This document shows, one piece after another, positions 26,464 through 64,000 of a DNA stretch of 64,000 bases; the stretch's first letter is position 1, and every line of letters begins with the position of its first letter. The position numbers and the translations under genes are program-made. The stretch is from Undaria pinnatifida. Lineage: Eukaryota; Sar; Phaeophyceae; Laminariales; Alariaceae. The stretch is taken from positions 1,005,185-1,069,184 of the forward strand of contig JABAKD010000021.1 of the NCBI GenBank assembly GCA_012845835.1. The letters are read 5' to 3'. Under the pieces are notes generated by a model. It worked only from the letters and a program-made list of their open reading frames with translations, ran no database searches and was not told the DNA's origin.

Positions 26464-28190
26464 TCAATCACTAAGACGGATGTCAACATACCCCCCGTCA
26501 CACGTTCCTCCGTGCGTGAAGAAATCGAGGTTGCTTTGCAAGATTAGCCCCGCGTTCATATTTTCAGCGTCAGATTGTAGAGCCGACTGGTCGATGGAAC
26601 AGGTGTAACGTGGCTTCACGAGCGGAATTTCCCAAATGGATGCAGTCCTGAACAAGTGGTCCGACACCCAGGTCTGCGGGTCAATAAACCACACTCCAGG
26701 CGTGTTGTTCGAGTAGGCTAATGCTGCCATCACCTGTGTATCGAAGGATCAGAAGGCATGGGGGAAAAATTCCAGTATGTGAAGAGTACACACAGGTTGT
26801 CGTCGATACTGAAACGACACACGGCATAGCGCTGGCCGCTCAGCGAACATGTGATTCATCACCACAGCTTCATGTGTAAACACGATGTTCACACGGTGTT
26901 TCATGAGCCCAAGGCAGGATGCACATACGTGAACCGCACGTTCTTGTGCCAAGGGGTAGGTAAACATGCCCAGGACTTGACATCAACAGGGGTCGCCGCA
27001 ATGGGTACAAATGTACGTCGGGGCATACACCCGGATTAACACAATATTCATTATATGGTTTCACGGGTTTGCCCAGGGCAAACATGGCCAATCACCAGAC
27101 GCTGAAACGGCAACCCCCTGTTTGACGTAGTGCGACACCACAACGAGGGTCCAGCGGCCAGTGCTGCAACCGCCTTCAGCATGATACCCCCGTAAGGATA
27201 CGGACCCGTGAAACCCTCGTTAAAGCGTACCTGCGGAACAGCCGACATATCGCGGATTGTCGCCAACTCGTGCATGACCTCGCGCAGGCCCCAATCGCCA
27301 GGACGTTCTTGATAATCCACGTCTCGTCCGGACACGAACCAATTGCGAAGGTTGGCGTTGGCCCCGACGGGCAAGAAGAGATCGGTGTTGAACGTGAAAG
27401 ACGGCGTTTCGAACCCGAGCACCCTAGTTGTCAGTTTTGCAAGTTCGCGGTCGACGTGTCTCAATTTGGCACTTCCGTGCACCACCAGGAGGTCTCCGTG
27501 GGTGGAATGAGTGTCCTTGGACGTGAACTGTCTTGATAAAATGGAACCGGGCTGCATGTAGAAGATGAGGCTTGTGTCGACGCCGCATAGTTCATCGGCG
27601 AACAAGCTTGCCGTGAAGGCGTCCTCGGTGACGTGAACCGTGACCCCGGGAAGGCCACCAACAGCCCTGGACAGGTGCAAACGATAACACAAGAGTCGAT
27701 CAGACGTTGCCACAGTGTACGCTTCTGGCGTCGAGTACAATGCCACACTCATCCGGGATGAGACGAAACGAGGCTTGAGCACAGCGCGGTGGAAAGAAAA
27801 ATGAGGCACGTACATGAAAGGAACGAACCAATTACTTTTCATAGTTTGCAAAAAAAAAACTTCTGATCGAAACCATCCTCTCACCTCTCGTACGCATCGA
27901 GTCCATCGTTTTCGACCGCGACTGCCACAGTCATTCCGGGAAGGAACTGGAGAACGCTCATCACCGCCACCTCGATCTGCTCTACCTTGCTCGATTGCCC
28001 TCCAACAAACGCGCACATATTTCCTCGAACAAGATTGTTCACGTAAGGAAGGACGGTGGCATCAGCAAAAATTGATTGAATGTCCTCCGTCTCTCCGCCA
28101 GCTAAAGCCAAAGTCTCTCCCTCCTTCACGGACGTTGACAGGCGGCGAGAGGTGGTGTCGTAGATGTCGACGGGAAACAACGTGTCGCAC
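26464..28190 (-). CDS. Exons 20-22: C-terminal domain
   Basis: Exon 20 (28190-27885) starts like the repeat units (CDTLFPVDIYDTTSRRLS), then leaves the repeat for TVLPYVNNLVRGNMCAFVGG and LQFLPGMTVAVAVENDGLD. Exon 21 (27747-27096) enters after CGGATGAG in phase 2. It carries GVTVHVTEDAFTASLFADEL, GDLLVVHGSAK, FNEGFTGPYPYGGIMLK and GLPFQRL. The GTGATT donor is weak, but the join to VMAALAYSNNTPGVWFIDP of exon 22 (26733-26464) reads smoothly. The protein ends GGYVDIRLSD. GPYPYG followed by a small-residue helix recalls sugar-nucleotide-binding regions, but I assign no family. Confidence 0.65.
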
Positions 28191-31100
28191 CTAGGCCACC
28201 ACATTACGCGGTGGACGACATCAGATACAAACGAAAGAGCAAGGGAAATTAATCCATCAATCTCTCCTGCTCTCTGTGAGACACATTTGGATCGTGCCTG
28301 CCTTGTGTTTTTAACCTCCTCGTCCTATCCGCTGCTCGTGGATCTCGTTTAGTTGTTCTGTTCAACACGAGAAATCAATTTGTGCAGGATTGCTGACAAT
28401 GCCGGCAAAGAAAATGCTCAATGTAGAATAATGCATCCTTCTTAATTGCACGTGGAATCGATGCATGGTCTAGCCCGTGTGTATTGTTGTTCACATTACA
28501 CTGATCATTCCAAATATGCATATCCAAGCACAATCAGTGTCCGTGCTGATACCCTCACAGGATACACTCTTGAGCTCTTCTGAATGTCACAATCGGCGAA
28601 ACGAAGGTACATTTTGCAAAACGTGCCAATACAGCAACGGTGTTTTGCCCATCCATTACCGACCCCAGTGAAAACGCGGCCCGAAACAACTGAGCAAGCG
28701 AGCACACTACAATCTTGTTTGCACTCTGAAAAAACGAAACAGAACGAAAAAAACAAAAACAAGAAAAAGAAAACAAAAGTACATAGAACAAGGCTTTCCT
28801 CAAGAACGAACCGTCGTCTATCGCAGGATCGAGATATCAACAAACTTTCCAGAAATGGCTAGAAAGGGTTTTTTTGAGCACGGGACGGTACAATCTGGGA
28901 TTGAACGGGGCAATTTAGACGGCAACCAGCTCCGTGTATAGCTCGAATACGATCCACTTTTAATGATCTAAACCCAACTTTCGAACAACTGCAAATGGTA
29001 CAAGCTGGATCGTCAAAATACATGAATGTATTGAAAGTCCAAGATGGCCACACAATCTACAACACACGGCAAACAACATACGCATGAAAATAACGGCGAC
29101 ATGGGAAATTGTTTCGAACATTTTCGTAGACCTAGACTTTGTGGAAACGAAGAGCACTTCCAGGGCGTCCAATGTGGGGTATGTCTGCACCGGCGCACAG
29201 CAGAAGCAGCGCTAATCGGCGACCATTGCGATCTGAGGCGATTAAAGTCTATTATATTTCGAAACGATTACGAGGGATAGCACCTTATGTGGTGTGGTAG
29301 TACAGTATGTGGTGGTAATATGTTTGTGTACGATGATACGGCGCAGTGCCAACACTGCTGCCATCTCATACGGAACACATGAGACTGTGTAAAGTCACTC
29401 GTAGGGTCACCAATCCGTTCTGGTCGCCGACCTTGACACGCTAGCCAACAGCTTTGTCAACGCATTTCTTGGGGCTACAATCATTACATCGCAGCCGAAG
29501 TCGAAACGTGAAAGGAACACGAGTTTCCCAGGAATGGCTTTCACATTGGGCGTGAGAATGATTGCACGCGTTAGGCAAACAACGGTTGTGCTACCTACAT
29601 GATGGCGGGATCGTCGACGTCGTTGTTTTCCAAGGCCTTCGTGCGGTCGTAGTAGCAATAGCGGCAGTAGTCCCCAAATTTCCCGTCAGACGCAGCACAG
29701 CCATTCGTGCCGTATGGGACTCCGTCGGAGCACGACTCGTCACATACACGGCCCGCCAATCCGTTGTTGAACGCGGCGGGGCAGTCGTCTTCGTCACAGC
29801 TGTTGCAAGAGAAATTCACGTAATCATGACAGTAGCAGAGACGACACGTGGAATCAAAAACTTGAAGAGCGAGGTTGTTACTACTATCTACAACCAAGTC
29901 GAGCATGCGAAGGTTAAGGCGAGACAACATGAGGGTAGTGTCAGCGCCTGCCCGTCTATTTCATTTTGTTTTACTCAAAATCTCACAAGTTGTTCCTCCA
30001 CTTTTCGGTCGTCCTCCATTTCGGCTCTTCATCGTCGTCGAGGTTCTCCCACTTCCGGTTCCTCTGCCACCTGGAGCACAGGTAATACGCAGGCCACACC
30101 GACATGGGTTGATATGGGTGTCAAGCGAGGGACAAGTCGGATATTCTCCTCACGTATCTGCGGATACTCGATGCCAGCATCCAACTACAACAACAACTCA
30201 TGATTTTTTCGCGTACTTGGGTGTGTCGTCGTCGCCAGCTCCCGTTTGCCACTTGGCGAGTTCGTCGTTGTCGGCATCGCCTGCCCACTTGCTGGTAGTT
30301 CGCCACTTAGCGTTTTCCCTCCAGGCTTGAAGTTGCCGGTGTCGGTGTCTGCGCTTGTTCCGAGGCTTATCGCGTACACTGCCGTCGACGGCGGTGCTGT
30401 TTCGCCATTCCTTGAGCTTGTGACCAATCGTCGGGGCGCTCTCCTTGACGGACGTTGCGAGACGGCGGGGAGTGTCCTCTTGGACGTTCACCGGCATCAA
30501 CGTGTCGCACCTACACAACATCAAAAGCGCAGTGGAATGGGTATAAAAAGAAAGAATACGTAGTACATTTTTTCAGTGTTTACTCACTGGGATTGACCAC
30601 TGTAACCCTGTCATTCACTTTTTGCATGCATGTGAGAAATTGCGTTGTTAATGATTGCCGTCATGACTAGAATTACGTAATGCTGTGTACATACGTACTG
30701 TCACGCATGCTGTAGAACAAGCATCGACGCATACCCATGCCTTTTGTCCTCCACGGATGCACCATATTGGTATGATCCTTGAACTATGCTGCCGAGTGGT
30801 ATGCATCAGCGCCTTGAAAACGTGGCAGTGTAACAGCAACGGCAGGGACAGCGGACTGTGCTTACACCAACAGCGTGTTGTATGAGTTCCAGTAAAATCG
30901 AAGCCGCGAGGCCTTCCCCACTCACATCAAACACATACGACATGTGTAGGCAATGTGTGGGTGCAGCGTTTTAGTAACATCCTTAGCCGTGGCAGCGACA
31001 ACGATGCCAAGTGGTGTGGTCGTCGTCAGGAAAATCGAGTGAAACAACGGCAACTGCAAGAGCGGTACGTTGTGCATTGCTCGTATCGTGCGTAAAAAAC

Positions 31101-34100
31101 CAAAAACGTCAGCACCAAAATATTCTTTCTTGCAGAAGGTGTTTCTTAGTTTCCTTCCACACATTGGGTGAACCCTGGGATCGACATTCTTTAGCGCACT
31201 AAACGCACCGCAGCATTGTGTCGACAGTCATAACAGAAAGTAGGATAGTGAGATCTGAGGTATGGGGCCGACGTCGCGCGTGCAGTTGCACCCGTTAGAT
31301 AAACAACGGTTGCCTTGCTTACATGATGGCGGGATCGTCGATGTCGTTGTTTTCCAAGGCCGTGTCGCGGTCGTAGTAGCAGGTGCGGCAGTAGTCCCCG
31401 AATTCCCCGTTAGACGCACCACAGCCGTTGGTGCCGTACGGGTCTCCGTCGGAGCACGACTCGTCACATACACGGCCCGCCAATCCGTTGTTGAACGCGA
31501 CGGGGCAGTCGTCTTCGTCGCAGCTGTTGTAAGAGAAGCACGTACGTACGTATGCGAGTGGCACAGACAACACGTGGGATCAAGGACCTTGAGAGCAACG
31601 TTGTAGGCACCATCTACAACCGTGTCAAGCATGCGAACATCAAGGCCGTCCAACACCAGTGTGGCTGCAGCGCCTGCCGGCGTATGTAGAAATTTTTCTG
31701 TACACATTACTCACAAGGTGTTCTTCCATTTCTCGTTCGTCCTCCATTTAGGCTCTTCATCGTCGTTGACGTTCGCCCACTTCTGGTTCTCCTGCCACCT
31801 GGGGCACGAATCACAGGCAGGCCACACCGGCAACGGTTGGTAATGGCGTCGTGCAAGAAACAAATCGGATATTCTTGTTACATATCTGCGGATACTTGTT
31901 GTCAAGATCTAATTACAGCGATCGCTTGTGAGGTTCGCGTACTTGGGTGTGTCGTCGTCGCCAGTCCCCGTTTGCCACTTGGCGGGTTCATCGTTGTCGG
32001 CATCCCCTGCCCACTTGCTGGAAGATTGCCACTTGGCGTTGTCCTTCCAGTTTTGAAGCTTGCGGCGCTTGCTCTTGCGTTTGTCCCGAGGCTCATCGCG
32101 TACACTACCGTCGACGGCGGTGTTGTCTCGCCATGCCTTGAGCTTGTAACCAATTGAAGGGGCGCTCTCCGTCACGGAAGTTGCTAAACGGCGGGATGTG
32201 GTCTCCTGGTCGTTGACCGGCAACAACGTGTCGCACCTACGCAACAGCAAAGCGTAGCGGAAAGGATATTTTTAATACAAGAGTTGCACACATAGTTTAT
32301 TTTTTCAGTTTTTACTGGGACTTTGTAGTTTTTACAGGGATACCTTTGAGGCATATCCAGATCGCGCGTGTAAAATGTGTCTCCAACCTTGTTCTTTTCG
32401 GTTACGATGGTGCTCAAGTTAACCACTCATCTAGAGCCCACGTCAACCACCTGTCTCATTTGCGGAACACGTTCAGCACGATTCCTCATTAAATGCACAC
32501 GTATGATTTGTACACGATCTTGCAAATTACTCAAGCACAAGTAGAATCGGTGCAAAAGCTCGGGTGTCGTTGGCCTAGTGAGATGCACGGTTTTTGTATA
32601 AACGCGACAGTGAAACAGCAACAGCAACTGCCGCGACATCGAAGTGTACTCTAGGCCCAGGGCCTGCTTATTGAATTCCAGCAACCATAGTGCAAACCCA
32701 GCGAAATGAAATGGCTGTGACAGCGAGAATAATGCCAGGTGAAGTACATAGTCTTTAAAGGATATTTCGAGTGGAATAACAGCTGCAGCAGAAGTAGTAC
32801 ATGGAAACACAGTTTTGCCGTAATTATTATCAACGGCATTAGTGCGATCAAAAGCATAATCACAACCACTTACACCGGAAATTTGATGTTAAAAAAAGGT
32901 TGTGGGTTTCCCATGGTTTTCTCCAACCGTTTGCGTTTACTCTTCAGTCCAGTCCATTCCTTGGCACCAGGAGCACTGCAGCGTTACGTGCCGAGTGCAA
33001 CGCGTGGAAAAGAACATACATTGTTGAGGTGTGGGTCCGTAAAGTGAGCCAACACGGTTGCCTCCCTTAAATAAACAACGGTTGCGTTGCTTACATGATG
33101 GCGGGATCGTCGATGTCGTTGTTTTCCAAGGCCGTGTCGCGGTCGTAGTAGCAGGTGCGGCAGTAGTCCCCGAATTCCCCGTTAGACGCACCACAGCCGT
33201 TGGTGCCGTACGGATCTCCGTCGGAGCACGACTCGTCACATACACGGCCCGCCAATCCGTTGTTGAACGCGACGGGGCAGTCGTCTTCGTCGCAGCTGTT
33301 GTGAAACAAACACGTACGTGAGTATGTTGGAAGCTGAAACACCACGTGGGATCAAGGATCGTCAGAGCGAGGTTATAGGCGCCATCTACAACCGTGTCGA
33401 GCATGCGAACATCAAGGCCGTCCAACACCAGTGTGGCTGCAGCGCCTGCCGGCGTATGTAGACATTTTTCTGTATACATTACTCACAAGGTGTTCTTCCA
33501 TTTCTCGTTCGTCCTCCATTTAGGTTCTTCATCGTCGTTGACGTTCGCCCACTTCTGGTTCTCCTGCCACCTAAAGCACAAATCACAGGCAGGCCACACC
33601 GGCAACGCTTGATAATGGCGTCGTGCAAAAACAAATCGGATACTCTTGTTACATATCTGCGGATACTTGTTGTCAGGATCTAATTACAGCGATCGCTTGT
33701 GAGGTTCGCGTACTTGGGTGTGTCGTCGTCGCCAGTCCCCGTTTGCCACTTGGCGGGTTCATCGTTGTCGGCATCCCCTGCCCACTTGCTGGAAGATCGC
33801 CACTTGGCTTTATCCTTCCAGTTTTGAAGCTTGCGGCGCTTGCTCTTGCGTTTGTCCCGAGGCTCATCGCGTACACTACCGTCGACGGCGGTGTTGTCTC
33901 GCCATGCCTTGAGCTTGTAACCAATTGAAGGGGCGCTCTCTGTCACGGTCGTTGCTAGACGGCGGGAAGTGGTTTCGTAAACGTTCACCGGCAACAACGT
34001 GTCGCACCTGCGCAGAAGCGAAGCGCATCGGAAAATATTTGATGAGTAGCTCATGTACATTCGCTTCCCCGGTGTTCACTGGGCCTTTTGTGTGAAGCGA

Positions 34101-37100
34101 GTTTAGATCGCGTTCGTCAATGAATATTGCTTTCTATTGATCTATTCGTGACACTTGCGTGCCTTTCCATCCTTCCATGTGCTCTCGAGGTTTATTGCTG
34201 TTCAAAATCGCTGACAATACTACAGGTACAGAGGCTAGGCTTTGGTCCAGTGTACACTGGCAGTACTACTTCATTGTCTATAGGGCATGTCTACAAAAAT
34301 GCCTTATTTCAAGATAGGAAACCCATGCACATACACGGCAAAATAGCATGCAGGGCACGAACAACAGCTACAGAGGGGGACGGTGGAGACAAGGAGGGGC
34401 ACCGCGAGAACGGTGGACGCTTACAAAGTATGGGACACAGGTTAGACGCATGTTTTATGTTGATGATGCAACACCCAAATCGCTATAATAAGCATAGTCG
34501 CAAAGTCATCTACTTTAGATTCAGGGAAGTCAAATCGCGTAAAAGTGTGCCTTCGGCAAGGTGCCTCCATGGGGTCCCTCTTCTTCAGCCGTGAGTTGCC
34601 AGTTGTCGCGGCGAAGCCGCAACTGCCAGGGCACCGGCTTATAAATCGGCCAGTACGTGCTGTACTGGCCAAACCTACCGGGGGTCACAACCACCAGGGC
34701 ACCGGCCTATGAAGCGGCCAGTACATACTTCTCTGGCCAGGCCTATCATGGCTCGCAACCACCAGAGCACGAGGTTAAAAAGCAGCCAGTACATACTGTA
34801 CTGGCCAGACCTACGGGGGCGCAGTCCCAGCGAATGCAGAGGGTAAGACACATACAATCGATACATACCCTCGCCTATTGCCCGCCACGGTGGCACGAAA
34901 TAGATCACACCACGACCATGCTTAGTGGTGGAGGTGCGCATCGCCGTAAAACCAGGACAGCGCATCAGCCGCTGCAGTGGCAGCAGACTGTGCTTGAACT
35001 AACAGTTTGCTCCGCGAATTCCGGTGATTGTCTCGACAAGGTGTACGTGCAGCGGTAAGTACCTTACATTTATCTAACTGACAGTAGTGCCAGATGTGGT
35101 ACACGGCCGTAGTCGTGGGACAATGGAGCAAAAACAGCGGCAGCTAGAGAAGAGTCATCACACGGAATGGGTTGCGGGCTGGAGGCCGAACACATTCTTG
35201 ACCGGTTGATCTCATTGTGTGACTAAGCGCTAGTGCTGTAAAGTCGCTGGAGTTCCCGCGTAGTTCTTTGTAGGCCGGCTCCGCCCGTCAAATACTTCAC
35301 TGGTTCGCTGGTGGGAACAACTAGTCGACTAAACGTAGGCGAGCTAAACGCAAGGCACCCCTTCCCTCCGCGGCGTCTAGGGGCGCACTTGGGGCGCACC
35401 CGGGGGCAAAAATCCTGCCATTATTCAAGGCAGATCCGTGAAGAGATTTCTCCCAACACAACAACAGCTTCCCACGAAAATATAATTGCAAGGTTTTCGG
35501 GCAAGCCCCACAGAAGATGGTGCTAGCTACTCAAGCGATACCGTCTGGCTAGTGTACATCTCGGAAGTCGTGATATTTCCCTCGTGGCTGAAAAATGCTA
35601 CGGAAACTACTCGTACCAACATCGGTGTCACACGTTTGGCAGAATGTACATGTAGCCAGATCCTGGTTCGCAACCCGGTGCTTCCCTTTGATAACCCTTC
35701 TGGTCGGGCCATTGGGGCATCACCTGGTTTTTGCCGCCTGCGAGGTCTACGGCGTCCACATACGCTTTATTCAGAGGGCCCCATTACGGGGGATGTGATA
35801 GGGTATGACGGTTTGTCTGAACCGCTTAGGTTCTGCATGACTGGGCTCCCAAACCCATATTCGTCGGTCGAAAATAGGACATTTTCAATTTAATGCTGCA
35901 CGGCGTGTACCTGGGCCCCCGTTTATGCACCCGGTATTTACTTGCGGCAGTTTTGTGTTTCTTGTTTGTTTGCGAAATCAGTTCTTGGGAGAAAATCGAG
36001 CTCCCGAGTATTGAGGAATCTCGAGAAAAACGGAATGGTGCACCTCTACCGTAGAATGTGTCCGGTACTACAGTACTAATTCAGAGTTCGTGAGCCAAGA
36101 ACACCTCGGAAGGGTTCCAGCACAAATAGGACCACTCGCAGCACCATTTCGTTACCCAGAATCCTGATGTCCAACGTGCCGTTCGGTTTTATGGAACAAA
36201 GTGAACTACTCTGGGACAAAGTTGTTCGCCTCTAAAAGTCTTCCGTCAGGATTGGAACGCAAGGAACTTACTTGATTTGGTTACTAACCAACAGCAAGCA
36301 ACGTTACTTTTGGTTCCGCTGCATTTTATAGGGGAAGAGGGTTGAGATGTGGAACTCCACACGCAACCCAAGAACATTCCGTGGCACCTTAGCCGACCGA
36401 GCTGTCAAGAAAAAAAAATGAACAACACATTCCTCATGCCACAAGCTAGAAACACAACAGTGCCAGCGACAGCGGTATCACCGAAACAGCGCTATTCCAA
36501 ACGTTGCCGAGTGTCATTGAGCTTGAAATGATTTCTATTCCTTTTTTTTTACCCTTTTCAAACACTGCCGGCTTTCGTGGTTCAAGATTCCGGCGAACAG
36601 TTCAGAAATTGGGCAAACAACGGTTGTGCTACCTACATGATGGCGGGATCGTCGACGTCGTTGTTTTCCAAGGCCTTCTTGCGGTCGTAGTAGCAATAGC
36701 GGCAGTAGTCCCCAAATTTCCCGTCAGACGCAGCACAGCCATTCGTGCCGTACGGGACTCCGTCGGAGCACGACTCGTCACATACACGGCCCGCCAATCC
36801 GTTGTTGAACGCGGCGGGGCAGTCGTCTTCGTCACAGCTGTTGCAAGAGAAATTCACGTAATCATGACAGTAGCAGAGACGACACGTGGAATCAAAAACT
36901 TGAAGAGCGAGGTTGTTACTACCATCTACAACCAAGTCGACCATGCGAAGGTTAAGGCGAGACAACATGAGGGTAGTGTCAGCGCCTGCCCGTCTATTTC
37001 AATTTGTTTTACTCAAAATCTCACAAGTTGTTCCTCCACTTTTCGGTCGTCCTCCATTTCGGCTCTTCATTGTCGTCGAGGTTCTCCCACTTCCGGTTCC

Positions 37101-40100
37101 TCTGCCACCTGGAGCACAGGTAATACGCAGGCCACACCGACATGGGTTGATATGGGTGTCAAGCAAGGGACAAGTCGGATATTCTCCTCACGTATCTGCG
37201 GATACTCGATGTCAGCATCCAACTACAACAACAACTCATGATTTTTTCGCGTACTTGGGTGTGTCGTCGTCGCCAGCTCCCGTTTGCCACTTGGCGAGTT
37301 CGTCGTTGTCGGCATCGCCTGCCCACTTGCTGGTAGTTCGCCACTTAGCGTTTTCCCTCCAGGCTTGAAGTTGCCGGTGTCGGTGTCTGCGCTTGTTCCG
37401 AGGCTTATCGCGTACACTGCCGTCGACGGCGGTGCTGTTTCGCCATTCCTTGAGCTTGTGACCAATCGACGAGGCGCTCTCCTTGACGGACGTTGCGAGA
37501 CGGCGAGAAGTGGTTCCGTAAACGTCTTCGACCGGCATCATCGAGTCGCACCTATGCGACGGCAAGGCGCGGTGGACGATGTGAACAATTCCGCACGGAA
37601 TGCACTGTTTTATCTAGTCTTTTTTGGTGTATGTGACGCTACTTATGATCGTATCCGACAATGTTTGTTGCACCCTCTTGTTTTTCACACGCATCATGAA
37701 CCCCGTGTGATCGTTTTGTTTCCATATCAGCTTTTTGTGTCGTACGTGTAGGATTCCTGGCAGTACTACTGGTACCCGATGTTGTGCGGAGAATCATGCA
37801 TACCGTAGCACACATACACTCGAGATAGTTACTCTCCCCTGCCGCCTTATACGGTAGGTAAAGTACTAAACCTACGTTGTCCGTTGAGAGATACGATTGC
37901 CACAGAACGCGGCACTGCAAGAGGAAGAGCAGCTGCAACAGACCCACACATGACGGCCTGGTCTAGAAAACGTGTAGATGCAGCGGTAAAACCCTCGAGG
38001 CGATAAAAAGGACAACAACTCAAGGTGAGGCACAGGCCGGCATCGGGGGATATTAGTCGAAAACAGCGACATCGGGTGGGGCACCCCCCACGGTAAAAGT
38101 GATTCCACGATTAAGACGCATCCCTTTTAGGGCGGTTTGAGTTCCATACGCGAGGGGCTACCGATTTATGTACTGAACATGAACCGAGCATGTTTGTTTA
38201 TAGGCTTGAGCATATGTGTGTTTGCCCGGTTGCGGAACCAATACGCCTTGTAAGACACGTTTTGGGTGATAATGGATGATGGATGATGGACAAGAAGGTT
38301 GACAATGTTCAAACTCCTCATGATGGAAGCGGACGCCGGCCGCAATAGAGGTAGCACTTTTCGTCGCAAATGGCGTCTGAACGACTGAGCTCCCTACCCT
38401 AAAATCGTCGAGAATGCTACGTTTTTTTTCTCGTGATTCTCGTCGTGTACCTAGGCTGCGGGAGTTTTTATCCGGCAGCAGTTTTTTTGTGTTCTTCTCG
38501 AAATAAGTTGCTGGAAGGAACGTGTCTCAGGCTCCGAAATTGAGCAACCTTGCTTGGGAAAACAAACTGGTGCACCTCTATTGTAGCACGCGTCACCTCG
38601 GACAATATTCAAAACCTGCGCCCAACCTACCTTCTGTGACCGGAATCAAGAGCAGTATAAATCTTATGCACAGCTAGCACCACGGAGTAAAAACAACAAC
38701 AACGGACGGTCGTCAGCAGCAGTATCAACATTACCAAAACAGTACTCGGTGTTGAAATGAATGATACAGGGTGTCGTTTTCTTCTACTTTTTTATATGTT
38801 TCATGAAACCCAGCATTAAACGCGGGCTACGCTAGAGGTGCACCACATTTTTTTTCCAAGTTTATAAGCTCACCGAGTAAGGAAAAATCGTTCCTAACCC
38901 ACGCACTGATTTGGACAAGAAAAAACTGCCGGCCGGAAGAAAAAAATTTCAAGGCCAAGATTCAGAACAGGAGTCATTTGAACAAATGGCCTATTTCCGA
39001 CGATAGTATTATTGTGCTAACGAGACCCATTATATGAAAAGAATTTTATGAAAAAAGTACACCCATATCGTAGCACGCGTCACTACGAGAGCACTGCAGC
39101 ATTCCGCGGCTAAGCTTCTTGGGTATAACAGAACCCGAATCGCCTGAGGAAGGTTCAGACATATCGGGCGAGAGGATTGCATGTGTTGCAGAAAAAACGG
39201 TTGCGCTGCTTACATGATGGCGGGATCGTCGACGTCGTGGTTTTCCAACGCTTTGTCGCGGTCGTAATAGCAATAGCGGCAGTAGTCACCGAATGCCCCG
39301 TCGGCCGCGCCACAGCCATTCGTGCCGTACGGGTCTCCGTCGGAGCACGATTCGTCACATACACGGCCCGCCAATCCGCTTTTGAACGCGGCGGGGCAGT
39401 CGTCTTGGTCACAGCTGAGATATGAAGAAAAGAACAAAAGCATGTGAGGATCATGGTTTTATGAGGGAGGGTGCACGTCATTCTTTACGCAACCATGTCA
39501 AATACCCGGGTATTGTATCAAGGACCTACAACACCACGTGGCGGCATCACGCCTTTCTGTGAAAATAAACATTTTTGTCCTTCAACTCACAAATTGTTTC
39601 TCCACTTGTCGGTCGTCTTCCACTTGGGTTCATCGTCGTCAGCGTTTGCCCACTTAGTTTCTTTCTTCCACCTGCAGTACAGATATATCGCAGGTCACAC
39701 CAGAGGCGTTTAATAAACGTGTCGTAAAAGAAACGATTCGGTAACTCACATAACATCGGCTGACACCTGATGTCAGAATGCAAATTGTTTTACTCGTCAT
39801 CACTGAGGCGTTTCTCTTACTTGGGTTCGTCGTCGTCTCCTGTCCCTTTTTGCCATTTAGCGAGAACGTCGTTGTCCGCGTCGCCTTCCCACTTCTTGGT
39901 GGTTTGCCACTTAGCGTTCTCCTTCCAAGCCTGAAGCTTGCGGCGTTTCTTGGTTCGTCGCGGCCGTGGCGAACTCTTCTGCACAACTTCCCGCACAAGG
40001 GTTTGCTGGCTTTGCGGAGGTTCTAATCTGTAGGAGCGAGAGCAACACATGTTAGGGTTTCAAGAACATTCAGGGCGCCTTGGATGTTTGAAGTTGAAAC

Positions 40101-43100: not shown

Positions 43101-46100
43101 CAAACCGACACACCGAGCAACTCGGACTGCTAGATTTGATGACGATTTTTTCGTGGAACTCCAATGAACAACCTAACTGAAAGACACCGCACAGCTTGCA
43201 CAGCCAGGTGCTGCCTACTCGCGACCAATGCTACGGTTGAGGCATCTCCTTTCGAGGCCTTTCTTTACACATTCTCGCGCGATTGACCCCCGTGTTTGTT
43301 CCATGCGGCCATAGGCCTTTTTTCGTGCTTTTGCTATTTTTTCAATGTGAATCCCCGACGGGATGGTTAGCTACACTGCGCCACAAAATCGTCCTTAAGA
43401 GCGTTTTTGTCGGTGAGGTAGTCGCTCGTGCGTGTATAAGATCAAAAAATATAAAAGACTCTAATCCGGTACTATTGAGCATTGCGGGGACCCTCCTGTT
43501 AACGCGTTTTTCGTTGCATTCGGGGAGAATAGACGGGGCGACAAGGTTGGCCGCGAAAAGGGTGCCAGAAGGTTATAATGAACAAGAAAAGAGACTATTT
43601 GTCGGAATGATAATAGTTGTACTTTGGGGCGATCTCGCATCTTATGATAAGATCACGACCATGGTGCACTCTAATCTGCACATGGGCCTCAAGAAGGGCG
43701 AGCTGTCATTTTCATAATGTTTTTGAGATGACAACAGTGCAGCTGTAAAACCGAGGGAAGCCTGCTACGATGGAGGTAGCACTTTTTGTCGGAAACGGTT
43801 TCAGACTGCCTGATCTCCTTTTTTTCAGCAAAAAAAACCCGCCGGAAATGCGTCATTTCTTGTCACGATTCTTGTCGAGTTAGATTTGATGACAATTTTT
43901 GCAGTCGTACCTTAATGTACAAGTAACTGCAAGACACACACAACTCGCACACGCAGGTGCTGCCTACTCGCGACCAATGCAACGGTTGAGAGATCTCCTC
44001 TTGAGGCCTTCTTTAAAAACACTCGTGAATGAGAGCACTCACTCGCGCCATTGACCCCCCTGTCGCATGCGGTCATAGGCCTTTCTTTGTCATTGATCTA
44101 TTTTTTTCAAGGTTTCATGCGGTCGTAAGCCTTCGTGATGTTTCTATTTTTTTCAATACGAATCCCCAACGACATGGATAGCTACGTGCGCCAAAAAATC
44201 GCAAAACGCTTTCTTATCGGTAAGATACAGAGTCGCGCGTGCGTGAATGACATGCCATGATATGATGGCTCTAATCCGGTAGTCAAAGCCGTGGGTGCCG
44301 TTAGTGGGTTGTAAAAACCGAAGAAAGAAAGTGATCGTCGGAATGATTGAAGCGGTACGTAAGGGCGATCTTGCATCATTATACGATTGAGACCAAGGTG
44401 TATTTTATTCTCCACATTAGCCTCCGAAGGGCGAACCTTCATTTTTTATCATTTTTCCGGGGTGACAACAGCAGTGCAGCTGTAAAACCGAGGGACGCCT
44501 GCTGCGATGGAGGTAGCGCTTTTTGGGTCGGAAAAAGTTTTCGAATGACTCATCTTCTGAGCCCCTCCAAAAACATAGGAAATGCGTCATTTCTTATCAT
44601 GACTCTCGTCGTGTTATATTTGATGACGATTTTACAGTCGAACCTCGATGAACGAGTGAATGAGAGACACGCGCACAACTCGCACACGCAGGTGCTGCCT
44701 ACTCGCGACCAATGCTACGGTTGAGAGATCTCCTTCTGAGGCATTTCTTGAATCACCCGTGAATGAAAGGACTCACTCGCGCGCGTGACCATGCGGTCTC
44801 CGTGCCGATTTTGAATTTTCATTGTGAATCACCAAAGACATGGATAGCTACGTTGCGCCAATTTTTCCATAAACGCCTTCTTTTCAGTGAGGTACAGAGT
44901 CGCGCGTGCGTGCATGGCATGGCATGGTTTGATAGCTGACTAATCCGGTAGTCAACATAGTGGGTACCCTCCTATCGTAGCCCCTATCGTTGCATTCGGC
45001 GACAAGAGTGCCAGAGGGTTGTGATAAACGAAGAAGAAAAGAGGTCGTCGGAATGAATAAGAGTTGTACGCTAGGGCGACCTCGCATCTCATGATGAGAT
45101 TTAGACCATAGTGTATATTATCCTGTCGTGCATATGCCTCGAAAGATCGAACTGTCATTTTGCATTGGTTTCTTGCGATGACAGAAGGTCGTACAGCTGT
45201 TGTAGTAAGACCGAGGGACACTCGCCACGATGAAGGTATCACTTTTCGTCGGAAATGGTTTCTGAATGACTGATCTCCTCAACTCAAAATCGTTGGAAAT
45301 ACGCCATTCTCTTATGATTTCTGGTCGTGTACCTAGCCTGCGGCAGGTTTCATCCGGTGGCGGTTCCATTTTTCTCATAACTAACGGTTGGGCAGAGGTC
45401 TTGACCCCTTCAAAACTAGAAAACCCTTTTGGGGACAAGTTTACTTGAAGAGTGTGAAGGAAAGGATTTAAAGGCTTTAACGGGGTGAAGCTTCAAAATT
45501 AGGAAAAACCTCGAAAACAATGCCGATGCACCTCTATCAAAGGACGCGTCGAGGACTTAGTTACTTAGTTGGAACACATGCTTGTGATCTGTGTGAAATA
45601 GCCCGATCGCGCGTGTAGGCATTATTTTTTCCCGGACTTACAAAAAATGTAAGAATGAAGTGACTTTCCATAATACGAACGATAGTAGTGCAAGAGTACA
45701 ACAAAGATGCAGTAGAGCTTGCAAAGTTATGGACGACGTTGGTTGACGAACACTCCTACCTGGTGTTTACTAGACAAAGAAGCTGTCACCGTACATTGGT
45801 TGGTTATGAACCAAGTCGTAAATGGTGCTTGTGAATTCTGTAGACTGCAAACGACCTACTACTGTTGCTTTTTCTTGTAACCATCAAATATGAGGCCATG
45901 GTTGCTGCACCCATCTTTTCACCATGTAAACCAAGCACTTACGAGGTTGGTCGTGACAAACTTGCTGGAGTACCGTTGCCACAGAGGCCAGGCGTACGGG
46001 AAGTCGGAGATGGTGAGCCAAAGCGCAACGTCGTACGGGTGGGTGTACTGCCATCGCGTGCGAGTGTAGTCGACGTACTCCACGAATGCAGGGTCGTTGT

Positions 46101-47235
46101 TGTTGTAGATGGCGTTTCCGTTGATGTGGCCGAGCATGTTCCACATGCCTGACTCCTGCGCGGTGGAGTGGAAGTTGGTACCGCCGAGGTTGCTCCCCTT
46201 AACCCAGAAGTTTTCGTTTACACGGAAAGCGGCGTGGTGAAGCTCCTCAAACGATCGATCGCTCGCAACCAGCACGTCCCATTCCACGAGGGCGAGGGCA
46301 TCATACTGCGATAGCTCAGAGTGGATACCCTCGTCAAGAAACATTTTGAAGAACATAACAGAGGGGCCCTTCGGGTAGACATCCTCCTGCAACATGGGCG
46401 CAGCACCGTGGAACAAGGGTGCTGGAGGGGTTAGAGTCTGGGGCCGGAAAGGGATGAACATTTTTTTCTACACATACGCGTACACTGATGGTAGCGTGAT
46501 GGCCGAACAAAGCAGGCCTCTGGCACCTAACGAGTTTTGTTCGCCTTGGATGCTTTCGTAGGTGTTGTACATCATCTGGCAGTAAATAAAACAAAAAATA
46601 TACTTGAGGACATTGAGTATTTACGATAACGGTATAAACACCTTTACCAAGTGAGTACAAGATACCAGGTTGTAGAATTCACCTGGTTTACACAATCCAA
46701 TCATCGCGCAACAATTTGATATCCCAGGCTCGAAACGAGGTGAAAAGGACGAGAAAGCGAGAAAATATGGGGAAAAACAAATTGGCGTGCTTCAAATTAC
46801 AGGAAAGTTGATAATGACGCTCGAGGTGCACTCAATTGCATGTAGAATGAGACCAGTTTCAACACAATAAATCCTGGCTGCGCCGGGTTACTCTCGGTCA
46901 TGGCGGACTACGGCCGGGTATATTCTTCACACGTGTAGAGGTTTTTCTCCACCCACTTGTGCCACGTGCTCTACCCGGATGTTTGTAGCATTTCGTGTTG
47001 AAACACATCGAACGGTTATTCCAAGCCCTCCACAGCTGCGACTGCAAGGTGTTGCCTCACACCAAAACTGCTCATTCCACTCATCTACAAATGCAACACA
47101 ATACTTTTTTTTGATCGGTATGTCCTTGCTTATGCTGCCTCCTATTGATACAGACAAAATGCTGTACGCACCTATACCAAATACAACAAAGCTTGTGTTC
47201 ACTTCCTTCACTATTGGCAATTCAATGAAACATGA

Positions 47236-47266
<31 letters not shown>

Positions 47267-53200: not shown

Positions 53201-55516
53201 TTCATAATGTGGGACACCCAAGCACAGACACCGCTCGTATTAGATGTGTGTGTGTGTTCTTCACATTAAACCGTTCTTCTACTCGTCGACATCCAGCATA
53301 CCCTGTGTCCGTACTGATTCTTCACCCTAGAAAGATCAGCTCTGTGGTCACAAGCTACGACACAGAGATAATGCATCGTAATGCATTCGACAACGCAATG
53401 TCATGCCCTAGTACTGGGTACGACAGGCACAACATACATACGTCAGCAACAGAGAGGTAGGAGGTTGACACTGATGTCAGTTTGGTGTCAAGAACGCATC
53501 ACACCGGCTGGAACATATACAGTCCATGTATATTAGATGCAAAACAAGAAGCTACACTGACATGACGCGGCATGATCCCTCCGTGCAATCAATCACGCTC
53601 GATGCAAACGAACTGCGCGTTTTTTACAGCTTGTCGGGGTCACGCCTTGTTCTGGACGCTGTAGATTCTACTACACACCGTAAGGCACAGTTAGTTCCCT
53701 ACGCCAAAGGGCCGATACTACTACCACAACACGGTAGTGTGAGATCGGTGGCGGCTATATTAAGTCGGTGAATGTTTTGACGGTAAACCATCATTGAATT
53801 GGCTATGTTAGGGACACATGAAATACACCCGAGCAAGGCTGTACTCATTTCACGTTGGGCCGTGGTCAAACTAGGCGCCTTTGGGACGGAAACCCCTGCG
53901 TTGGCGTCTATACATGTAGGAGTATAGATGCATACCATCGTATGCAAGATGATATAGTTGACGCGGCCACGATATAGGGCCACTTTCCGCGAAAAATAAC
54001 CACCATAGGGGAAAAAAAAAATATCTCAAGTTTCAACTCTACAGATGTTTTAAAACAATTTCAAGGTTCGTTTTTATCCCGCAACATGGACGTCCGACAT
54101 GGATATCGTACGCATTTCAGGTTGTGCCAGACTTGAAATGTATTACGATATTTGAGTATTACATACCTGGGAGGTATTCGGCCACACCTGGAACAGAGTA
54201 CGCGCACATGTCCGATTATGAGCTACGTGGGGCACATAACCAACCCCTCGCTCCACAACTGCCAGTCTAAAAATGCCCCTGCGCCGCCTTTGCCACACCC
54301 ACACCCTTGGTTAGGAAGAAGAAACACCAGTAAACCGCCGTGTCCTTTCCCAGGCCAAACCGAGATTTTCAGCCCCATCGTGCGTGGTTTTAAGGTCTAC
54401 GTCCTTTGTGTGTGTGTGTTCTTCACATTAAACCGTTCTTCTACTCGTCGACATCCAGCACACTCAGTGTCCGTACTGATTCTTCACCCTAGAAAGATCA
54501 GCTCTGTGGTCACAAGCTACGACACAGAGATAATGCATCGTAATGCATTCGACAACGCAATGTCATGCCCTAGTACTGGGTACGACAGGCACAACATACA
54601 TACGTCAGCAACAGAAATACATTGGAAGAGAGAATACGAAATAAACAAAAACAAAAACAAAAACAAAATAATAATAAGAAAACATATAAAACAAAGATAA
54701 AAAATACAAAAATGTACCAGCATGCAAACTCATTTTTTGGCAGCCTCTTGATGTGCGGTTTTCGTGTCGACGTTATCTGTATGATCAGCAACAAATTGTG
54801 CGGTAAACGTCATCTGTACCAACAGGAGCAAACTTCACGACCAATAACGGATGCTGCTTACGTACCTCATGTATGCCGGACAATAGGTTGTAACTCCTCG
54901 TGCCCCTGCATTGATGTGCAAGAGCGAGTTCATCACAACAAGTTCTAACCCTAATCCAACATAATTACATTATGCGAGGTTCGATGTGGCGCGCTTGTCC
55001 AAGACCAACACAATTCGAAGTTGGGTGCCACAAGTCACTGCCTATCGGATTAGATTCCCTTCCAGGCACAGCTTTTGTGCGACAACAAAAATGTAAAGTC
55101 ACAAACATCTCAGACAATTTAACCTCCCCCAAACCAACAACACTCACCTCTTCACTCAAATGGGCGTACACAAGGCGCGTTTGCGCAAAACAGCGCCCTG
55201 CAGTCTCCCTGACGATTTCGACGGCAGCTGTCACGGTCGGAGCATCTTCTTCCCCCTCCGCATAGTACAAGACGAGGTCCGCGTTTCGCTCGGTCAAGGG
55301 AGAACAGGTAGACGGCCACCGGTCGAGAGATGACACCGCGCGTGAGAGGTCACCGCGATAAACAGGGACAACTACGGCTAAGTGCTGCCCCGGGCCTCCT
55401 GCGGTCGAAACAAACGGATCTTCTGCTGGATGAACGGCCAGCGTCTCTGCGTATGAGAGGACGGCCCGACCCGAAAGGGCCAAGCATCCCGCAAACGCAA
55501 CGCAACGCATATACAC
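26464..55516 (-). CDS. Large secreted modular protein, glycosyltransferase-like with Cys-rich repeats (22 exons)
   Basis: Exons on the minus strand: 55516-55148, 46386-45943, 41634-41122, 40520-40360, 40027-39821, 39671-39591, 39414-39214, 37551-37255, 37108-37025, 36837-36637, 34007-33714, 33570-33487, 33295-33095, 32236-31943, 31798-31715, 31523-31323, 30510-30217, 30070-29987, 29799-29599, 28190-27885, 27747-27096, 26733-26464. The sum is 5,523 nt: 1,840 residues plus TGA. All junctions are GT-AG and in phase: phase 0 for the first three and the last intron, phase 2 for the others. Order: signal peptide, GT-like domain (to about residue 300), Cys modules 1-2, five repeat units of Lys/Trp/acidic linker plus Cys module, and a C-terminal domain of about 400 residues. 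Probably enters the secretory pathway. Weakest points are the 8.8-kb first intron and the GTGATT donor of exon 21. Two shorter genes remain possible. Confidence 0.7.
28478..28620 (+). repeat. Element S1, diverged copy in intron 19
   Basis: TGTTGTTCACATTACACTGA, then CAATCAGTGTCCGTGCTGAT and GAGCTCTTCTGAATGTCACA follow the same order and spacing as the better preserved copies at 53.2 and 54.4 kb. Confidence 0.55.
29599..30510 (-). CDS. Exons 17-19: repeat unit 5 (type A)
   Basis: 30510-30217, 30070-29987 and 29799-29599. Almost identical to unit 2 from about 29575 to 30465 including introns. The first 15 codons differ (CDTLMPVNVQEDTPRRLA). The donor of the Cys exon is AT|GTAGGT, as in unit 2, while type B units use AT|GTAAGC. 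Confidence 0.8.
31323..32236 (-). CDS. Exons 14-16: repeat unit 4 (type B)
   Basis: 32236-31943, 31798-31715 and 31523-31323. Differs from unit 3 by few residues (CDTLLPVNDQETTSRRLA; AKWQSSSKW against AKWRSSSKW). The intron before the Cys exon has diverged more than the exons, consistent with purifying selection or exon-centred conversion. Confidence 0.8.
33095..34007 (-). CDS. Exons 11-13: repeat unit 3 (type B)
   Basis: 34007-33714, 33570-33487 and 33295-33095. Same architecture as unit 2 but a distinct subtype (CDTLLPVNVYETTSRRLA, basic patch KRKSKRRK, DDDEEPKW, TEKW replaced by NEKW). The Cys module spacing is identical. Close to unit 4 across exons and most intron sequence. Confidence 0.8.
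34535..34623 (+). repeat. Second copy of the GC-rich hairpin element
   Basis: GTGTGCCTTCGGCAAGGTGCC-like start and GTCGCGGCGAAGCCGCAACT end, matching 4100-4220 in order. It directly precedes the palindromic 67-bp array, as if both arrived together. It lies in intron 10. Confidence 0.55.
34626..34822. repeat. 67-bp tandem repeats, each with a palindrome
   Basis: CCAG(G/A)GCAC recurs at 34626, 34693 and 34761. Each unit carries an imperfect palindrome: GGCCAGTACGTGCTGTACTG, the GGCCAGTACAT...CTGGCC version, and GCCAGTACATACTGTACTGG. Located in intron 10 of the large gene. Confidence 0.85.
35905..36080 (+). repeat. Dispersed family R3, copy 2 (intron 10)
   Basis: TGTACCTGGGC, CGGCAGTTTTGTGTTTCTTG, TTGAGGAATCTCGAGAAAAA and GGTGCACCTCTACCGTAG correspond in order to the copy at 38435-38605. 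Confidence 0.55.
36637..37551 (-). CDS. Exons 8-10: repeat unit 2 (type A)
   Basis: 37551-37255, 37108-37025 and 36837-36637. CDSMMPVEDVYGTTSRRLA is followed by a basic stretch (NKRRHRHRQ) and KW/acidic repeats, the DDNEEPKWRTTEKWRNN exon, and the Cys module with spacing C-x4-C-x12-C-x3-C-x10-C-x10-C-x2-C-x19-C, the last Cys coming from the next exon. Nearly identical to unit 5 through both introns. The donor after exon 8 is AA|GTACGC. Confidence 0.8.
38160..38605 (+). repeat. Dispersed family R3, copy 3 with 5' extension (intron 7)
   Basis: The 5' part (GCACTTTTCGTCGCAAATGG, CTCGTCGTGTACCTAGGCTG) matches the end of the 740-bp array at about 45240-45345. The 3' part (CTCCGAAATTGAGCAACCTT, GGTGCACCTCTATTGTAGCA) matches the other R3 copies. 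So R3 and the intron 2 array share an origin. Confidence 0.6.
39214..40027 (-). CDS. Exons 5-7: repeat unit 1 (most diverged)
   Basis: Exon 5 (40027-39821) starts LEPPQSQQTLVREVV, lacking the Cys-Asp-x3-Pro start of later units. It then has a basic patch (RRTKKRRK) and a Trp/acidic linker (ENAKWQTTKKWEGDADND). Exon 6 (39671-39591) adds TKWANADDDEPKWKTTDKW. Exon 7 (39414-39214) is the Cys module CDQDDC...VCDESCSDGDPYGTNGC...YCRYC. Its short introns do not share sequence with units 2-5, which marks it as an older copy. Confidence 0.75.
40085..40252 (-). other. Open, exon-like segment inside intron 4
   Basis: After a good acceptor (ATTTTTGCAG), the minus strand reads NDYMGVGFECQKIGGKLRLS, AYLYPIKAEVNGHILC and GVDATVVAGHTFQLQ before TGA. 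Spliced to exon 4 it would be out of phase and stop early. Skipping it gives a perfect join of exon 4 to exon 5. It is therefore a decayed exon, an alternative exon or chance. Confidence 0.35.
40360..41634 (-). CDS. Exons 3-4: end of the GT-like domain and Cys modules 1-2
   Basis: Exon 3 (41634-41122) opens with ISYVGFEHVDHTTVSNAVAG and TLFIHGSR, completing the GT-like domain. It then carries module 1 (CNAAC...VCDDTCAGDSG...CGAGDSERFGYMCRLC) and CDTMRPPEAAECSDKC. Exon 4 (40520-40360) adds VCDQSCGTGRHGDYNC and CRFCFNDVDTAL and ends MCS in phase 2. The final C-x2-C...Cys of each module matches the later repeats, so these are diverged founders of the module family. Intron 3 between them contains a foldback element. 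Confidence 0.7.
40727..40957. mobile_element. Foldback (MITE-like) element in intron 3
   Basis: Arms 40791-40832 and 40916-40956 are inverted repeats of about 42 bp with few mismatches (TAGATGAAGGCTAC...GGGGGGAACCCCCAA). A nested pair, GCCAAAAAAGGGTATACCTC (from 40771) and CTACCCTTTTTTGGC (to 40905), lies around them. A third partial arm sits at 40721-40745. No coding capacity. Structure fits a non-autonomous DNA element. Target duplications were not resolved. Confidence 0.7.
43130..45330. repeat. Three diverged tandem units of about 740 bp (intron 2)
   Basis: Unit starts share A(G/T)ATTTGATGAC(G/A)ATTTT at 43132, 43880 and 44617. Each continues with GCAGGTGCTGCCTACTCGCG, GACCAATGC(T/A)ACGGTTGAG, CGCGCGTGCGTG-like stretches and a CGGAAA(C/T)GGTTTC end. 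Substitutions and indels are scattered, so the array is old. Confidence 0.9.
45330..45570 (+). repeat. Dispersed family R3, copy 4 (intron 2)
   Basis: TGTACCTAGCCTGCGGCAGG, AAAACCTCGAAAACAATGCC and GATGCACCTCTATCAAAGGA follow the R3 order directly after the 740-bp array. Part of its left end belongs to the array's last unit. Confidence 0.5.
45943..46386 (-). CDS. Exon 2: core of the glycosyltransferase-like domain
   Basis: 148 codons, phase 0 at both ends (acceptor ATGTTGCAG, donor CTC|GTAAGTG). Contains PSVMFFKMFLDEG, YDALALVEWDVLVASD (a WDV motif where GT-A enzymes carry an acidic metal-binding triad), GHINGNAIYNNNDPAF and LTISDFPYAWPLWQRYSSKF. The frame is open upstream to 46461 (starting MFIPF), but the CAG acceptor and the clean join to exon 1 favour starting at EDVYP. 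Confidence 0.75.
47242..47275. repeat. (AT)n microsatellite in intron 1
   Basis: Poly-A followed by about 13 AT repeats, in the first intron of the large gene. Confidence 0.9.
47900..49080. repeat. Diverged tandem duplication, about 638-bp unit (intron 1)
   Basis: Blocks of the first unit (GGCACCGGCCCTAGGTTTTC, CTGACAACGGGGGTCA, GCAACACGTGAGAACAA) recur at about +638 (GACACCGGCGGTAGGTTTCC, CTGACATCGGGGGTCA, GTAGCACGTGAGAACAA). The end blocks with ACGTCGTTATGTTGAAACTA-type sequence also correspond. Confidence 0.85.
50150..50400. repeat. Pyrimidine-rich and ACT-triplet tract (intron 1)
   Basis: CTCCTGCT-type repeats give way to ACTACTACC triplets. The Ser/Thr/Tyr-rich open frame over it is a consequence of composition. 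Poly-C runs follow at 50807-50850. Confidence 0.75.
51969..52260. repeat. Diverged tandem pair, about 208-bp unit (intron 1)
   Basis: GAACTCTGTTCCACATCC...GCTGCAATTTCGGCCCATTT and GAATTCTGTTTCAGTTCC...GTGCAATTTCGGCCGATTTT are about 208 bp apart. Each is preceded by AAAACGAGG-like or GGTTTTGATT sequence. Confidence 0.65.
53243..53458 (+). repeat. Element S1, well-preserved copy (intron 1)
   Basis: From the TG run and TTCTTCACATTAAACCGTTC through GTCCGTACTGATTCTTCACC, AGAAAGATCAGCTCTGTGGT to GGGTACGACAGGCACAACAT. Nearly identical to 54408-54615 over about 210 bp, and the downstream flanks differ. That sets the right boundary near AGCAACAGA. Confidence 0.85.
54408..54615 (+). repeat. Element S1, well-preserved copy (intron 1)
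   Basis: The same element as at 53243, with a few substitutions (CACACTCAGTGTCC instead of CATACCCTGTGTCC). Flanking DNA is unrelated, which shows independent insertion rather than a local tandem duplication. Confidence 0.85.
55148..55516 (-). CDS. Exon 1: signal peptide and start of the glycosyltransferase-like domain
   Basis: 123 codons. MYMRCVAFAGCLALSGRAVL is a typical signal peptide, with likely cleavage near Ser-Tyr-Ala. Then VVVPVYRGDLSRAVSSL resembles the first beta strand and helix of GT-A nucleotide-sugar transferases, followed by ADLVLYYAEGEED. The exon ends in phase 0 at AGTGAAGAG|GTGAGTG, leaving ...YAHLSEE, which joins naturally to EDVYPKGPS of exon 2. The ATG is the first in frame and directly precedes the hydrophobic segment. 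GT-A membership is an inference from fold-like motifs, not a family hit. Confidence 0.7.
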
Positions 55517-63700: not shown

Positions 63701-64000
63701 AAGAGAAAGCACTTCTGAACGAAACAACCATGTCGACCAGTGCGGTATATCAACCGAAATCAGCCGAGCAACAGCATATTCGGCGCAGCTGCACATCACC
63801 AGCGCGGTATAGCAGTATATCAACAGCAATCAAAAGACAAGGCGAAAGCACGTCTGGACAACACAGCCGTGCCAACCCGGCCGGTATGTCATCCGCGAGA
63901 GCTGTATATCAATAGTAATCAAAGCGGAATCAAAAACATTTCTGGTCAACAAAGCCTTGTCGACCTGGGCGGTGCATTAACCAAGAACAGCAAAGCAAGA
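60780..64000. repeat. Degenerate satellite, about 137-bp monomer
   Basis: The marker CACAGCCGTGTCGACCAG and its variants occur near 62308, 62540, 62680, 62817, 62953, 63088, 63225 and 63362, at steps of about 135-140 bp in the middle, then irregularly. Between markers the same order recurs: GCGGTATATCAACCGCGATC, AGCAAAGC, ATATCTGGCGCAGCTGTATA, CACCAGCGCGGTATAG and CAACAGCAATCAAAA. The left part (60.8-62 kb) holds more decayed, shorter units. It runs off the right edge. No gene inside. Confidence 0.9.

Follow-up and report, generated by a model that had tools for sequence, protein, structure and literature searches.

This locus of the kelp Undaria pinnatifida raises the question of whether the exons recognised on its minus strand between positions 26464 and 55510 belong to one gene, and what kind of protein such a gene would encode. 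The window, by which we mean the whole stretch of 64,000 nucleotides analysed here, corresponds to C28:1005185-1069184 in a genome of 511,146,479 bases and 68 contigs. The first-pass annotation had described a secreted modular protein spliced by hand from 22 exons, with a head resembling a glycosyltransferase, seven cysteine modules and a tail without assignment.

Gene model at the locus

Re-splicing of the minus strand reproduced the chain of 22 exons (Table 1), which runs from an ATG at 55510 to a stop codon at 26464-26466. All 21 introns are of the GT-AG type, with a G at position +5 in 21 of the 21 donors; introns 4 to 20 lie in phase 2 and the remaining introns in phase 0. The joined exons amount to 5,301 nt, a total divisible by three as had been claimed, and encode 1,766 aa without an internal stop. 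The length of 1,840 residues given earlier had to be revised, in part because the paralogues set the end of exon 21 at MSAVPQ, directly followed by gt; a variant of 1,786 aa, which uses a weak donor after GGIMLKA, was rejected for the same reason. The first tail queries (profile libraries, PDB, viral contigs) and the figures for pI, hydropathy and sequons were computed on the 1,786-aa variant, and the tail profile and its searches were built on the corrected 1,766-aa model.

A gene finder based on dynamic programming was applied, with phase-aware chaining, hand-set splice weights, a codon bias derived from those exons that were clearly recognisable, and the start fixed at 55510. With an exon penalty of 6 it returned 21 of the 22 exons exactly, shortening the terminal exon and adding an extra last exon of 82 nt. 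With a penalty of 3 small exons were inserted, giving 28 exons in all; these small exons were not carried into the gene model, and in the final model the last exon was left open to its stop. The gene-finder score is no independent proof, since its codon table had itself been derived from a portion of this gene, and it is for this reason the comparison of paralogues and cassettes, not the score, that excludes chance.

The agreement of intron phases, earlier put forward in support of the splicing, was confirmed, but as an argument it is weak, since the exons had been chosen to fit. Stronger support comes from three full-length paralogues, in which the exon order is the same, and from the substitution pattern. 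For exons 1, 2, 3, 4, 21 and 22, dN/dS amounts to 0.05-0.28 (36 comparisons across 6 gene pairs), and in all four genes they are free of internal stops; as judged from dN/dS, the head, module and tail exons are under purifying selection. Among the five cassettes of the window, dN/dS is below 1 in all 10 pairs (0.15-0.67; 0.23-0.29 for cassette 1 versus the other four), which argues that the cassette exons are translated and selected.

The great length of introns 1 and 2 (8,761 and 4,308 nt) and a broken tail-only copy on contig C18 would suit the view that several distinct genes, or a relic that is not transcribed, had been joined by eye. We consider this highly improbable, as exons 3 and 20 each bridge two parts of the protein in one open frame, so that head, modules and tail belong to one gene, and as the paralogues keep the exon order and the six exons compared have dN/dS values well below 1. 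On this evidence from sequence, the locus is a single 22-exon gene of U. pinnatifida whose order is conserved among paralogues, in line with the earlier proposal of one gene and not several. The predicted protein consists, in this order, of a signal-peptide-like start, a conserved head, two divergent eight-cysteine modules, five cassettes and a conserved tail. Each cassette combines a basic Trp/Lys-rich linker with an acidic eight-cysteine module, and four of the five cassettes measure 193 aa.

Table 1. Positions of the exons, of the conversion-like tract (both in window coordinates) and of the full-length paralogues (in contig coordinates).
Feature	Position	Strand	Content
Exon 1	55148..55510	-	ATG; signal-peptide-like hydrophobic stretch at residues about 3-14; beginning of the head (HLAVVVPVYRGD...); open in paralogues C28b, C28c and C2; dN/dS 0.18-0.28
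Exon 2	45943..46386	-	Head core (VEWDVLVAS ... FWVKGSNLGGTNFH ... LGHINGNAIY); 90-93% identity in three paralogues; dN/dS 0.07-0.12
Exon 3	41122..41634	-	Head end and Cys module 1, sharing a single open frame; dN/dS 0.12-0.20
Exon 4	40360..40520	-	Cys module 2, first two Cys encoded in exon 3; dN/dS 0.05-0.15
Exon 5	39821..40027	-	Cassette 1, linker, basic, Trp-rich
Exon 6	39591..39671	-	Cassette 1, short KW-repeat linker exon
Exon 7	39214..39414	-	Cassette 1, Cys module 3
Exon 8	37255..37551	-	Cassette 2, linker exon A
Exon 9	37025..37108	-	Cassette 2, linker exon B
Exon 10	36637..36837	-	Cassette 2, Cys module 4
Exon 11	33714..34007	-	Cassette 3, linker exon A
Exon 12	33487..33570	-	Cassette 3, linker exon B
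Exon 13	33095..33295	-	Cassette 3, Cys module 5
Exon 14	31943..32236	-	Cassette 4, linker exon A
Exon 15	31715..31798	-	Cassette 4, linker exon B
Exon 16	31323..31523	-	Cassette 4, Cys module 6
Exon 17	30217..30510	-	Cassette 5, linker exon A
Exon 18	29987..30070	-	Cassette 5, linker exon B
Exon 19	29599..29799	-	Cassette 5, Cys module 7
Exon 20	27885..28190	-	Residual cassette start (CDTLFPVD...) and tail start in one open frame
Exon 21	27231..27666	-	Tail centre (FYMQPGS..., NTDLFLP), 3' end set by paralogues; dN/dS 0.14-0.24 among four paralogues
Exon 22	26464..26733	-	Tail end and stop codon; dN/dS 0.13-0.28
Conversion-like tract	36609..37505	-	Cassette 2 versus 5; 897 nt spanning two introns, with 11 differences
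Paralogue C28b	1131254-1161335		3 cassettes
Paralogue C28c	1198940-1241894		8 cassettes
Paralogue C2	2054898-2073530		7 cassettes

Several other features were seen in the window. An open frame on the minus strand at 10141-11103 matches the NADAR domain PF08719 with 65 bits (cut-off 35.1; E 1.2e-17) and may represent a neighbouring gene, which we take to have a possible part in NAD- or ADP-ribose-related metabolism. A further minus-strand frame at 1209-1811 contains cysteines and scores highly with the codon table of the kelp gene, without a Pfam match. A tandem duplication of 976 bp with 99.8% identity occupies 6117-7092 and 7088-8063, and degenerate satellite-like repeat arrays lie at 20362-23042 and 61843-63898; in the former, both strands contain long ORFs that are probably spurious. 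Within intron 1, a 209-bp element, perhaps a mobile one, occurs twice with 98.6% identity (53245-53453 and 54407-54615). Searches for Rfam families and tRNAs gave no matches.

Paralogues and the wider family

Searched as DNA, the last exon was found at 5 places genome-wide, the window included. Three of these belong to the further full-length paralogues, which keep exon order and strand; together with the gene in the window, three of the four full genes are clustered on contig C28. Head, modules 1 and 2, cassettes and tail were found in the same order, on the same strand and in open frames in all four genes, save for one split linker exon in C28c. That exon, at C28:1206746-1207019, matches in two frames, owing to a frame shift or an assembly error. 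The genes differ in cassette number, with 5 in the window versus 3, 8 and 7 in the paralogues C28b, C28c and C2. The fifth place, C18:4705230-4705473, holds the last tail exon alone, with a broken frame (matching in two frames); neither the surrounding 49.4 kb nor the 10 kb further upstream yielded any of the other exons.

Parts of the protein were also found at further places, and the counts for the head core, the module-2 exon and the cassette Cys exon are lower bounds. The head core has at least 22 matches in the genome, grouped into about 15 loci, and the module-2 exon at least 23. Of the 15 head loci, 12 are followed by a module-2 match in the same orientation, at most about 14 kb downstream; one stop codon interrupts each of three of these matches. 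The head loci that have no module 2 downstream are C2:2.34 Mb and weak fragments on C19 and at C55:3.68 Mb; at C2:2.34 Mb, six cassette Cys exons stand downstream of the head in place of module 2. All 31 matches found for the cassette Cys exon are preceded by a head upstream; they fall into six loci, namely the window (5), C28b (3), C28c (8), C2:2.06 Mb (7), C2:2.35 Mb (6) and C21 (2).

At C26:27.296-27.380 Mb, about eight module-2 exon matches, two of them split, stand in a row without a head-core match, and one more lies at 27.10 Mb; these places could possibly be a second branch of the family with a diverged head. Outside the kelp genome, no relative was found among viral contigs or, in a search with the head, among phages. 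A single DNA pattern searched in prokaryote genomes gave two matches, both of which proved unlike the head when their surroundings were read.

Head, cysteine modules and tail

In enzymes of the GT-A fold, a strand-loop like PVYxGD near the start is followed, in that order, by an acidic ExD after a hydrophobic strand. The kelp head carries PVYRGD in exon 1, near its start, in four of four full paralogues, and the motif [ED]-[WH]-D-V in 12 of 13 aligned heads as well as in both loci excluded from the alignment, so an acidic metal motif of the DxD/ExD kind is present at motif level. L037 (C34), where an inner stop separates two pieces of the exon, and exon 2 of C28c were excluded from the 13-row alignment, in which C19:11.10 Mb and C55:3.68 Mb, both short fragments, served as partial rows. 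Neither the head nor the 13-row profile had a significant match in Pfam, NCBIfam or PDB sequences, the best chance-level hits being EVE in Pfam (E 0.11) and PDB entries with E 0.97 and 0.6, and a Pfam scan of the 13 aligned heads gave no matches. An AlphaFold prediction of one single head exon without an alignment reached a pLDDT of 29.8 and was unusable. The earlier call of a GT-A-like head thus stands as regards its motifs, but not as regards a significant match to a family or structure. From the motifs and their order, we infer a metal-dependent, GT-A-type glycosyltransferase-like domain in which ExD would replace DxD.

The first-pass annotation could name no family for the protein, and this agrees with our searches, in which nothing exceeded the curated cut-offs of Pfam and NCBIfam and no PDB E-value fell below 0.45. 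Together with the large share of the length that is made up of repeats and the variable cassette number among paralogues, the absence of a match to an enzyme family in Pfam and NCBIfam would agree with a matrix protein whose role is structural or adhesive and not catalytic, in which head and tail, both as lectin-like or pseudo-enzyme domains, bind glycans and the cassettes bear load. Such a matrix component is possible and close in probability to a glycosyltransferase-like protein. Against it, exon 2 is among the most conserved exons, only the module-2 exon being similar (dN/dS ranges in Table 1), and the prevalence of the ExD-type motif among the aligned heads is more easily reconciled with catalysis or the binding of a metal than with a purely scaffolding role.

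The count of seven modules was borne out, eight cysteines being invariant in seven of seven; in module 4 they are spaced C-x4-C-x12-C-x3-C-x10-C-x10-C-x2-C-x19-C. Searches with the modules gave a best E of 1.2 in the PDB and 0.11 or worse in Pfam, with weak matches of zinc-ribbon or zinc-knuckle type at E 0.2-0.5. The linkers had been described as Trp-rich and acidic. The two of five that were measured contain 8 and 9 Trp and acidic patches, but they are net basic, with pI values of 9.73 and 9.78. Two cassette Cys modules, in turn, have a pI of 4.05 and the region of modules 1 and 2 a pI of 4.93. The signal-peptide-like start could be recovered as a hydrophobic window of 12 residues from residue 3 (mean Kyte-Doolittle value 1.95), kept in the four paralogues, and since this N terminus is conserved, the protein probably enters the secretory pathway. 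Only two N-glycosylation sequons occur in the protein, a point against the reading preferred below.

The tail comprises about 300 residues with 71-74% identity among the paralogues and, as noted before, has no assignment, with no significant match in Pfam, NCBIfam or PDB sequences. Its profile reached a best E of 1.1 in the PDB, and the strongest sub-threshold Pfam match, to APD1-4_N, was seen in two of four members (best E 0.017) and lay below the cut-off in the member shown. A second GT-A domain was considered for the tail and found no support, the comparison with the head giving a blastp E of 0.91 and an hhalign probability of 0.4%; the four tails have no conserved acidic DxD-like motif (QPG, QHD, QPG and KPG). 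A hydrophobic stretch (19-residue window from residue 1504, mean 1.99) could possibly be a membrane segment.

Cassette arrays, proposed role and known systems

The Cys exons of one gene resemble each other more than those of different genes, with within-gene mean identities of 92.0% (window), 92.7% (C28b), 98.7% (C28c) and 94.5% (C2) versus 70.3-89.2% between genes. The inner introns of cassettes 2 and 5 are 98.4-98.6% identical. The two cassettes are nearly identical from a point within linker exon A to 28 nt beyond Cys exon 10, differences being dense down to 37506 and again from 36608. This pattern bears the signature of a recent conversion or exchange tract of about 897 nt. Another pair, cassettes 3 and 4, shows 93.6% identity over 987 nt and is probably older than the pair 2/5, given a dS of 0.090 versus 0.043. 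In the C28c array, the repeats, together with their introns, show 97.7-97.9% identity over 7.5-7.7 kb. Taken as a comparison of sequences, these data show cassettes that evolve in concert within genes and bear traces of tandem duplication and conversion.

The near-identity of the introns in cassettes 2 and 5 and of the long repeats in C28c could also be expected if the cassettes were partly an artefact of assembly. We regard this as quite unlikely, as the flanks of cassettes 2 and 5, more than 40 nt downstream and more than 60 nt upstream, are 47.6% and 51.1% identical versus 40-56% for random pieces, i.e. beyond about 60 nt they are no more alike than chance; moreover, the cassette copies carry differences of their own, and six loci hold arrays of 2 to 8.

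Arrays of phase-2 exon cassettes, with a duplication or conversion tract that has one edge near a splice site, also call to mind recognition or defence proteins whose cassettes diversify by exon shuffling. This has been proposed for the ROCO receptors of brown algae, in whose genes shuffling of LRR exons is reported (PMC11378527). Such a role appears unlikely for the kelp gene: its cassettes are homogenised within genes, their dN/dS stays below 1 in every pair (though it is 0.67 in the youngest), and the three segments scanned had no LRR, ROC or NB-ARC match in Pfam.

Our preferred reading, to which we assign a probability of roughly 0.45, is that of a glycosyltransferase-like protein, directed to the matrix, whose polyvalent spacer is expandable. 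The first-pass annotation had suggested a possible cell-wall or extracellular-matrix enzyme with adhesive repeats, and such an enzyme is still a conjecture. The protein would enter the secretory pathway and work in the Golgi or the extracellular matrix. Its head would carry out metal-dependent glycosyl transfer of the GT-A type, with a PVYxGD strand and ExD in the place of DxD; head and tail would act on or bind glycans, the tail in a binding or accessory role. Disulphide modules alternating with basic linkers may make up this long polyvalent spacer, which would bind the anionic alginate/fucan matrix and whose length would be tuned by the number of cassettes. More doubtful is the proposal that the genes constitute an unnamed kelp glycosyltransferase family in which a catalytic head would be linked to the tail by an array of disulphide and Trp/Lys cassettes that evolves in concert and varies in copy number; tandem duplication and gene conversion of entire cassettes would then set matrix binding or the reach of the enzyme.

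The genes that build the walls of brown algae are only partly known. The about 15 head loci, 12 of them with Cys module 2 downstream, offer a candidate set for wall biogenesis or adhesion, and the arrays of 3, 5, 7 and 8 cassettes in four sister genes a natural system for the study of exon-cassette duplication and conversion. If the heads are catalytic, their sequences would define a new glycosyltransferase family, in a lineage with independently evolved multicellularity. In open-licence PMC text, nothing recognisable as this family of head, modules, cassettes and tail was found. Homologues annotated as conserved unknown proteins are likely to exist in other brown algae, and as a putative modular, secreted, GT-like wall protein the kelp protein is therefore not categorically new.

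Among known systems, GT-A-fold glycosyltransferases have in common with the kelp head the PVYxGD-like loop and the ExD in GT-A order, at motif level only; the kelp head differs in being fused to an array of Cys cassettes and a second domain, without a family match. The EsV-1-7 family of Ectocarpus, to which IMMEDIATE UPRIGHT (IMM) belongs, likewise consists of cysteine-rich brown-algal proteins, with a repeat of the form C-x4-C-x16-C-x2-H that the cysteine spacing of the kelp modules does not fit. In lipid-transfer proteins, the eight cysteines follow the pattern C..C..CC..CxC..C..C. These proteins carry their eight-cysteine motif (PMC9832785) as a small module comparable to that of the kelp gene, whereas the kelp modules have neither a CC nor a CxC pair and no significant Pfam match. 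The ROCO LRR genes of brown algae (PMC11378527) come close in their mode of evolution, with exon-encoded repeats, duplication at the level of exons and expansion of the family, as in the kelp family; in contrast to them, the kelp gene has no LRR, ROC or COR match and is built of three-exon cassettes that are homogenised instead of diversifying.
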